DNA from: Thermoleophilia bacterium
GTDB taxonomy: Bacteria > Actinomycetota > Thermoleophilia > Gaiellales > Gaiellaceae
DNA length: 38,392 nt
Assembly: GCA_025930955.1 (NCBI GenBank)
Contig: JAICNY010000004.1
Span: forward strand, 1-38,392
Direction of reading: 5' to 3'
Below the pieces are notes generated by a model, which ran no database searches, was not told the DNA's origin, and saw only the letters and a list, made by a program, of their open reading frames with translations. Positions 18,340-20,242 of this stretch are shown here, piece by piece. Position 1 is the first letter of the stretch. Every line of letters starts with the position of its first letter. The translations under genes were made by a program, and so were the position numbers.

Positions 18340-18459
18340 CTAGAAGAGCTGCGCTGCGATCAGGACGCCGACGGCGGCCCAGACGGCTGCGAGCGGTGCT
18401 AGAACCGGCGCGAGGGGGCGGAGAGAAGGACGGTTGTCGAGCGGCGGATGACTTCGCAC
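18340..18459 (-). CDS. possible 39-aa small membrane peptide
   Basis: [45 protein letters not shown]; no good SD seen. Confidence 0.25.
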
Positions 18460-18507: not shown

Positions 18508-18609
18508 TTACCCGCCGCGCCGGAACCCCGGGAAGGCCATCCAGGCCTCGCCCACGAACAGCGCCACCGGTACGAGCGCCGTAACCAACATGATCAAACG
18601 ACCCCTCAT
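18508..18609 (-). CDS. 33-aa hydrophobic micropeptide downstream of XRE-TPR gene
   Basis: MRGRLIMLVTALVPVALFVGEAWMAFPGFRRGG; SD agaaaggaggtga (13 nt matching the canonical complement of the 16S 3' end), about 7 nt from ATG, overlapping the stop of the upstream gene; not in the supplied ORF track. Confidence 0.78.
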   Translation of the reverse strand: MRGRLIMLVTALVPVALFVGEAWMAFPGFRRGG

Positions 18610-18624
18610 GCGTTCACCTCCTTT

Positions 18625-19974
18625 CTAGAAGTGGAAGTCCTGGAGCGCCTCGGCCGCGCGCCGGTAGAGATCGGCGGCGCTGCGGTCGTCGCCGCGCTTC
18701 GCCGCGAGGTCGCCCTGCGCGATCCAGGCGGCGGCCCGATGGCTGGCCGAGGAGAGCTGGTCGAAGTTCGCCTCTGCGCGGCGGAACCACTCCTCCGCCT
18801 CGTCGAGCCGGCCCCGCTCCAGGAGCGAGCGGCCGAGCACGAGCTGGACGTTGCCGATCTCGTCCTGCAGGTCGTCCTCGCGCCCCTTGAGGAGCTCGAG
18901 CGCGTGGCGCGCCTGCTCGTCCGCGAGCTCGAGCTCGCCGGTGCGGAGATGCACCTGCGCGAGCGACGAGACGGCATAGCCGGCCTCCATGTCGCTGCCC
19001 ACTTCGAGCGCGACGCGGAACGCGTCCTTCAGGTACGCCTTGGCCTCCTCCGGCTTGCCGAGGAGGAAGTTGAGACCGCCGAGGTTGTTCAGGAGCGCAC
19101 CGACGTTCGCCTGGTGCGCGATCTCCTCGTAGAGGCCCTTCGCCTGCTCCGCGTGCGTGCGCGCGAGGACCCACCGGCCCTGGCGCTCGGCCACGAGCGA
19201 CGCCTGGAAGTGCGCCTGCGCAAGGGCGTAGCGGTCGTCGATCCCGCGGGCGAGCTCGAGCGCGCGCTCGACGTCCTCCCGCGCCGCCTCCCAGTCGCGC
19301 TGCCGCTGGTAGCAGCGGGAACGCCACTCGAGGGCGAGCGCGCGGAGCCGGTCGCTCGGCAGCTCGGAGCGGTCGGCCAGCTCGATCGCCTGGGTGAGGA
19401 GACTGACCGCGGTCGCGATCGAGGAAAGGTTGTAGCGGCATGCGCCGAGCCGGAAGAGCACGTCGGCGCGGTCGACGTCCGTGAAGCTCGGCTCCTCGGT
19501 CAGGACGCGGGCCCGCTCGAGCAGGCGTGCGGCGTCCTTGACGTCGCCGATGTACATGCGCGCCCAGGCCTCGGCCGTGAGCGCGCGAAGCTCGAGATCG
19601 GGCGCCGAGACCTTCGTGAGCGCCTCCGCGATCCCATCGAGGATCGGAAGCGTGCCCTCGTAGTCGTGCGCCTCGAGCGTCGCCTCGGCGCGGGCGATCA
19701 CGCTCTCGACGCGCTCGCGCTCGCCGGAGGAGACCCCGTGGAGCAGGAAGCCGGCGTCGACGCCGAGCCGCTCCGCGAGCCAGGCGATCGTCTCGTCGGT
19801 CGGGCGCGTCTTGCCGCGCTCGATCTGGCTCACGTACTCCTTCGAAAACCGCTCGCCGGCGAGATCCGTCTGCGTGAGCCCTGCGTTGATGCGGAGCTGG
19901 CGCACGCGCTCGCCGAGGCTCGGCCGTGCGGTCGAGCCGGCGCGGGTCTTGAGCAGGAGCGGCGAGTCGGTCAT
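18625..19974 (-). CDS. XRE-family HTH regulator with TPR repeats
   Basis: LGERVRQLRINAGLTQTDLAGERFSKEYVSQIERGKTRPTDETIAWLAERLGV plus multiple TPR-like repeats. Confidence 0.9.
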   Translation of the reverse strand: MTDSPLLLKTRAGSTARPSLGERVRQLRINAGLTQTDLAGERFSKEYVSQIERGKTRPTDETIAWLAERLGVDAGFLLHGVSSGERERVESVIARAEATLEAHDYEGTLPILDGIAEALTKVSAPDLELRALTAEAWARMYIGDVKDAARLLERARVLTEEPSFTDVDRADVLFRLGACRYNLSSIATAVSLLTQAIELADRSELPSDRLRALALEWRSRCYQRQRDWEAAREDVERALELARGIDDRYALAQAHFQASLVAERQGRWVLARTHAEQAKGLYEEIAHQANVGALLNNLGGLNFLLGKPEEAKAYLKDAFRVALEVGSDMEAGYAVSSLAQVHLRTGELELADEQARHALELLKGREDDLQDEIGNVQLVLGRSLLERGRLDEAEEWFRRAEANFDQLSSASHRAAAWIAQGDLAAKRGDDRSAADLYRRAAEALQDFHF

Positions 19975-19988
19975 CGGAGCCTAGGTGA

Positions 19989-20016
19989 ACTATAGGGGCG
20001 GAAATCTGCTTCACAA
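19989..20016 (-). promoter_or_regulatory. candidate sigma70-type promoter for XRE-TPR gene
   Basis: minus strand TTGTGA - 16 nt - TATAGT, 15 nt before the ATG. Confidence 0.45.
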
Positions 20017-20022
20017 CCCCAC

Positions 20023-20050
20023 TTGACTTTTTCGGCCGTGTGCCTATAGT
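20023..20050 (+). promoter_or_regulatory. candidate sigma70-type promoter
   Basis: TTGACT (20023-20028) - 16 nt - TATAGT (20045-20050). Confidence 0.55.
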
Positions 20051-20056
20051 CCGAGT

Positions 20057-20174
20057 TGCTCGCTCCTCGCCACACGCCAGGCAGGTGCGGGCGGCGCGCC
20101 AGAGAGATAGGCGACAAGACGCCCGGAGGCTGGGTGGGCCGCAGACCCGAAGCCTTCGGGCCGTCGCCTTTAAA
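20057..20174 (+). ncRNA. candidate structured small RNA
   Basis: downstream of a sigma70-like promoter; ~21-bp interrupted stem 20110-20168 followed by tttaaa; no same-strand CDS follows before 22528. Confidence 0.45.
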
Positions 20175-20242
20175 GACCTCGAGAGGATGCGGCATACCTC
20201 CACCGTCGCCCATCCGGCTCGCCGCGTGAATCCCTCGTTGGG

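Follow-up and report, generated by a model that had tools for sequence, protein, structure and literature searches.

A probable RRNPP-like peptide-receptor signalling locus with a divergent structured RNA in Gaiellaceae (Thermoleophilia)

The window, by which we mean the whole 38 392-nucleotide stretch of DNA that was analysed, belongs to a 2.7 Mb draft genome (95% complete) of a soil actinobacterium of the family Gaiellaceae; the named loci nearest to it lie in Thermoleophilia/Gaiellaceae metagenome-assembled genomes. It carries a compact locus that consists of an XRE-TPR regulator, a tiny conserved peptide with the appearance of an exported product and a divergent structured RNA. The neighbours of the locus are housekeeping genes (among them selD, a rhodanese, an MFS transporter and an AMP-ligase), with no phage genes noted among them, and the chromosomal synteny is stable across loci.

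The regulator gene, referred to below as the receptor gene (18625–19974, minus strand, stop codon included), encodes a protein of 449 residues and was defined from its open reading frame, Pfam, AlphaFold2 and Foldseek. Pfam places an XRE-type HTH domain (HTH_31/HTH_3) at residues 20–76 (approximately 20–80), with TPRs over the rest of the chain beyond about residue 125, and the AlphaFold2 model displays a confident TPR superhelix with a pLDDT of 91.9. A TPR superhelix, with or without an N-terminal HTH, in a cytosolic chain of 250–500 residues is the receptor architecture of the RRNPPA group, and the present protein falls within this description. A Foldseek search with the model matched RapJ (PDB entry 4gyo, E = 2.1e-7), Rap phi3T (8rsv, 3.7e-7) and PlcR (3u3w, 4.9e-7), ranked below eukaryotic TPR peptide-binding proteins and designed consensus TPRs; TPR proteins whose crystal structures contain peptides (LGN/Pins) are among the best matches. 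Sequence profiles matched RapJ, RapH and the ComR HTH together with many generic TPR proteins, and the sequence similarity to Bacillota RRNPPA receptors is limited to generic TPR and HTH similarity. The label RRNPP-like is used here in a functional sense and says nothing about descent from the Bacillota RRNPPA family. Receptor homologues are present in 87 of the 151 genomes searched (counting that of the window), and 67 of the 69 loci on named genome contigs are close homologues, the other two being distant Bacteroidota TPR matches. A phylum-level search gave no strong homologue outside Thermoleophilia, so a wider spread is not claimed. One receptor copy (L130, G076:C155) has an in-frame TAG near the HTH and is likely to be a pseudogene.

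The receptor gene ends in TAG (18625–18627, minus strand) and is followed directly by the Shine–Dalgarno sequence AAAGGAGGTGA (18614–18624, minus strand), the tetranucleotide ACGC and an ATG at 18609. The intervening stretch, AAAGGAGGTGAACGC, separates the receptor stop from the propeptide start by 15 nt and contains a contiguous ten-base match to AAGGAGGTGA. The propeptide ORF (18508–18609, minus strand) has 33 codons plus a stop; its product, MRGRLIMLVTALVPVALFVGEAWMAFPGFRRGG, occurs once in the genome. The original prediction of an XRE-TPR gene followed by an extended Shine–Dalgarno sequence, an ATG and a 33-codon ORF is accurate in both sequence and coordinates. The short gap and the strong Shine–Dalgarno sequence suggest that receptor and propeptide may be translationally coupled. 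In RRNPPA systems the adjacent propeptide gene encodes 10–100 residues, lies −60 to 400 bp from the receptor gene and has a good Shine–Dalgarno sequence, all of which hold here. The interval from the propeptide to the rhodanese gene holds a further small ORF (18340–18459, minus strand; 39 residues, GTG start) whose C-terminal half is hydrophobic.

To assess conservation of the ORF, the 3′ end was read for every homologue that extends that far, in Gaiellaceae and in a sister family; 109 distinct ends were left once duplicates had been removed. A short downstream ORF with a Shine–Dalgarno sequence follows about 98 of the 109. Under a strict rule (at least seven contiguous Shine–Dalgarno bases and a closed ORF of 20–75 codons), 83 of the 109 receptor stops qualify compared with none of 233 control genes, which were other genes from the same contigs in the flanks of related loci. 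The 33-codon ORF is not a chance occurrence, and its linkage to the receptor holds across homologues whose receptors are 42–82% identical. No peptide follows the receptor in L143, L166 and the distant class-level homologues L173, L174 and L205; in L098 the peptide is on the opposite strand, and in L159 and L214 the receptor ORF continues into the propeptide. In L214 (1246–2587) this stop-free reading is apparently either a natural fusion or a sequencing error. The L158 locus begins before the gene, and the true end, in L215, carries a peptide. The pN/pS ratio over independent close pairs is 0.46, indicating purifying selection on the propeptide ORF. Loss or frameshifting of the ORF in close relatives had been named in the original prediction as grounds for abandoning it; the ORF is instead kept after nearly every homologue. 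Being very short, such propeptides would easily be missed by routine annotation.

The propeptides share a common plan: a basic N-terminus precedes a hydrophobic segment, after which a linker that varies leads to a C-terminal motif that is conserved. Lysine or arginine is found within residues 2–8 in 105 of 106 peptides, and a strongly hydrophobic 12-residue stretch is likewise present in 105 of 106. In the window, charge and hydropathy place the hydrophobic segment at residues 5–22 (18544–18597, minus strand), behind the basic N-terminus, and this region is predicted to be signal-sequence-like. The mean net charge is +3.15 on the N-terminal side of the core and −0.22 on the C-terminal side (N-side higher in 95 of 98 peptides), from which the C-terminus is predicted to lie outside. 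RRNPPA propeptides carry a Sec signal or some other signal for export. A clear AxA site is missing from many of the short propeptides. The peptide ends in xx[DSE]G in 88 of 106 cases, with the consensus [GS]-[MFWL]-x-[DS]-G-[GHPRN]. The window peptide is without the D-G of the family motif and ends instead in PGFRRGG (18511–18531, minus strand). These seven C-terminal residues are assigned as the putative pheromone region from constraint and from their likeness to the nearest relative, L003 (82%), which has PGFHRGG and otherwise differs from the window peptide in its middle part and by 17 residues in length. It is this stretch that appears to be relevant, not EAWMAFPGF, the C-terminal peptide put forward originally. 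The last eight residues are under the tightest constraint: over 30 pairs, pN/pS is 0.30 for these residues, 0.63 for the middle (linker) and 0.41 for the N-terminal 20. Several propeptides (L021, L024, L030, L031, L078 and L171) contain 3–5 tandem copies of the motif, those of L021 being SMFDGGSAFDGGSMFDGG, with five copies in L024, four of GM(H/Q)DGHG in L078 and three of DGFADGGD in L171. The L171 precursor is a secreted-looking product of 153 residues whose start overlaps the receptor stop (TGATG). RRNPPA pheromones consist of about 5–10 C-terminal residues, sometimes in multiple copies. Multi-copy precursors have been reported among AimR, NprR, Rap and PlcR propeptides (PMC9765709).

With a hydrophobic segment almost always present, the ORF might instead encode a small, constitutive membrane protein with a single span that is never released, either unrelated to the regulator or acting as its tether and sensor, with the tail making contacts outside and the receptor controlled by sequestration. 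The shortest members (28–35 residues) have a tail of only 5–10 residues beyond the segment, and the AlphaFold model of the tethered propeptide described below has a single helix with a loose tail. We nevertheless consider this reading improbable. The C-terminus is more constrained than the hydrophobic part, the tail is duplicated in tandem, and some members have long variable linkers past AxA-type sites; the 15-residue version in L085, MKARLILHRSWTDGH, retains the tail but little of the hydrophobic core. The original prediction had itself offered a constitutive tiny membrane protein as the alternative, which leaves the C-terminal motif, the repeats and the variable linkers unexplained. A toxin–antitoxin or bacteriocin/RiPP module, with the XRE protein repressing a hydrophobic peptide that is either a toxin or a product of modification, appears very improbable. 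XRE repressors paired with small hydrophobic toxins do exist, and the receptor weakly matches HaaT, a TPR protein of a RiPP pathway, at a level far below the cut-off. Against such a module, the housekeeping neighbours include neither a dedicated exporter nor any recurring modification enzyme, signalling is the better match for the repeated short motifs and for the stable synteny on the chromosome, and a membrane toxin is hard to see in the L085 form. The toxin–antitoxin, RiPP and plain membrane-protein readings are all ranked below peptide signalling. The simplest explanation to take in the receptor fold together with the C-terminal motif, its repeats and the variability of the linker is a receptor–pheromone pair, and the regulator/peptide pairing proposed originally gains support from conservation, selection and the tandem copies of the motif.

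In the RRNPPA group the pheromone is bound on the concave TPR surface, with a change in receptor activity, and in the proposed pair the TPR superhelix would be the peptide-binding element. Once overall receptor distance is removed, in an analysis uncorrected for phylogeny, the C-terminal motif diverges in step with receptor helix-A positions 328–344 and 370–386; helix B gives a weaker correlation than helix A (p = 0.024), and no such correlation with the helix-A columns is seen for the signal part of the peptide. This covariation is at most suggestive of peptide recognition. A receptor–propeptide chain was also modelled with AlphaFold2 as an in-frame read-through, with the TAG read as Gln purely as a tether. 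Structure prediction of the TPR domain with the peptide had been proposed at the outset; the tethered model leaves the C-terminal peptide disordered and undocked, with a pLDDT of ∼28, and so lends binding no support from structure.

Several variants of the locus occur among relatives. HTH-less, TPR-only Rap-like paralogues are found in L206, L207, L208 and L214–L218, most with their own propeptide ending in GF[SY][ST]G[GNAL]. In L214, L215, L217 and L218 the next gene encodes a secreted trypsin-like protease, which is a plausible maturation enzyme. Second-copy receptors (L055, L065, L080, L103, L110 and L144) have LRK-type propeptides ending in GFSDGR and are without the upstream tandem operator described below; they probably form a separate signalling channel. 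In one genus (L151, L153, L154, L155 and L172) the propeptide linkers are Thr/Pro-rich and the C-terminus is KGHGGGxM.., and the propeptides of the sister family f2 (L156, L157, L162, L163 and L165) end in GFH[EQ]W.

The 2 kb searched for promoters contains just two of σ70-like type, arranged back to back. The receptor promoter, TTGTGA-16-TATAGT (19989–20016, minus strand), is opposed by the promoter of the divergent RNA, TTGACT-16-TATAGT (20023–20050, plus strand), which is conserved in homologous loci. Both −35 boxes are covered by the tandem half-sites GTCAAGT-N6-GTGAAGC (20008–20027, minus strand), a putative operator. The pattern GTSAAGY-N6-GTSAAGY has one match in the window compared with 0.00 expected and is also unique in the genome. 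It occurs once per genome, 5′ of the receptor, in G000, G018, G029, G030 and G043; these include four of the five genomes tested besides that of the window, the exception being G014, where the sole match lies elsewhere. The tandem arrangement is present in 68 of 109 upstream regions (62%) and in 0% of controls. It is absent from two second-copy families and from f2, though receptor and peptide are present there. A genome-unique repeat of this kind suggests a small regulon centred on the receptor's own bidirectional promoter and the RNA, both of which the regulator probably controls.

The plus-strand promoter reads into a previously undescribed structured RNA (20057–20175, plus strand, ends approximate), which was delineated by its fold z-score (−2.88 for the single sequence), covariation and an alignment of 51 loci in which the structure is conserved. 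The RNA is apparently non-coding and comprises a 5′ hairpin with a loop around ACGCCAG and a long 3′ hairpin, GGCGAC..GTCGCC, whose loop, GGGCCGCAGA (20136–20145, plus strand), was found by alignment and pattern search to be nearly invariant. In the distal hairpin 96.9% of the aligned cells are paired, compared with 18–46% when the stem is slid, and two-sided changes occur in four of the five pairs; when given the full RNA alignment, RNAalifold retrieved the distal stem alone. In most relatives the RNA is followed by a hairpin that resembles a terminator and again has the GCCGCAG loop, but the search for terminators found none in the window. Rfam gave no match at the gathering score for the window and four relatives. 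Neither the RNA nor the shared operator figured in the original prediction.

It is possible that the tandem GTCAAGT is a duplicated −35 box of the RNA promoter and that the RNA has an unrelated housekeeping role and merely shares the promoter region, a reading compatible with peptide signalling. The sequence ACTTGAC includes the consensus −35 (TTGAC), and the receptors of f2 and of the second-copy paralogues work without the repeat. A duplicated box would not account for the roughly ninefold enrichment of GTSAAG half-sites throughout the region upstream of the receptor (2.79 compared with 0.30 per 300 nt), nor for a repeat spacing that is constant at 13 nt across loci whose receptors share only 46% identity. 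An unrelated RNA is at odds with the distribution of the RNA pattern, which is found in receptor-bearing Gaiellaceae genomes and adjoins the receptor in nearly every case; the one in G001 departs from this and seems to be a chance match, other families match no more often than the control pattern does, and f2 is without the pattern. We regard this explanation as unlikely.

Taken as a whole, the locus is probably an RRNPP-like peptide-receptor signalling system. The 33-residue product would be exported as a propeptide, and its C-terminal residues (approximately PGFRRGG here and usually G-[MF]-x-D-G-x in relatives) would be released as a short pheromone. Re-import would proceed through an oligopeptide permease, the route used in the RRNPPA group; the genome encodes four SBP_bac_5 oligopeptide-binding-type proteins, none of them linked to the locus, so that import would be possible. 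The XRE regulator, whose gene immediately precedes the propeptide, would then bind the imported pheromone in its TPR superhelix, and it would bind DNA at the tandem GTSAAGY half-sites over both −35 boxes. The leftward output would be the regulator's own gene and the propeptide and the rightward output a dedicated structured RNA, with activation and repression alike possible. Export, cleavage, import, peptide binding, the identity of the operator, the direction of regulation and the function of the RNA are the inferred elements of this scheme. That the imported peptide switches the regulator at a single genome-unique bidirectional operator, setting receptor and pheromone against the GCCGCAG-loop hairpin RNA as dedicated output, in an actinobacterial class that branches deeply, is put forward tentatively, at somewhat less than even confidence.

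The RRNPP_detector survey, a large one, covered only Firmicutes and viruses, and its authors describe quorum sensing in actinobacteria as typically based on small molecules (PMC10075063). In the open-access literature searched, RRNPP peptide signalling is described only in Bacillota and their mobile elements, and no RRNPP-like system was found for Actinomycetota or Thermoleophilia. The receptor–propeptide pair, with its clear pheromone-precursor anatomy, is carried by the majority of genomes in a common family of soil bacteria; if the present reading is correct, this mode of signalling extends to another phylum, and testable peptide signals become available for mostly uncultured bacteria. With the linked RNA, the circuit has an output that can be tested directly.

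The RRNPP/RRNPPA systems of Bacillota (PlcR-PapR, NprR-NprX, Rap-Phr, Rgg-SHP and PrgX-cCF10) have the same HTH+TPR or TPR-only receptor of 250–500 residues, with a fold that Foldseek matches to Rap and PlcR, and likewise an adjacent short propeptide with a Shine–Dalgarno sequence, a signal-like N-terminus, a (here putative) C-terminal pheromone motif and multi-copy forms. The present system differs in its host, a member of the Gaiellales (Thermoleophilia, Actinomycetota), and in the linked structured RNA; to our knowledge, G-[MF]-x-D-G-x is also unlike the motifs of the RRNPP group. PrgX-PrgQ of enterococcal plasmids likewise couples a regulator with divergent promoters and a pheromone system, but serves plasmid conjugation control, with an operon leader as the regulated transcript, and no matching RNA structure or family is found at the present locus. 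Rap proteins have no HTH, and the TPR-only paralogues of relatives (L206–L208 and L214–L218) resemble Rap-Phr in having their own propeptides; they differ in that several stand ahead of a gene for a secreted trypsin-like protease. Arbitrium (AimR-AimP-AimX) of Bacillus phages has the same tandem of TPR receptor and propeptide, and its receptor is reported to control one dedicated element, aimX (PMC6458997, PMC9232636), the product of which binds MazF (PMC10769878). The corresponding element here is structured, divergent in orientation and apparently without coding function, and the setting is not a phage but the chromosome, within conserved housekeeping synteny.
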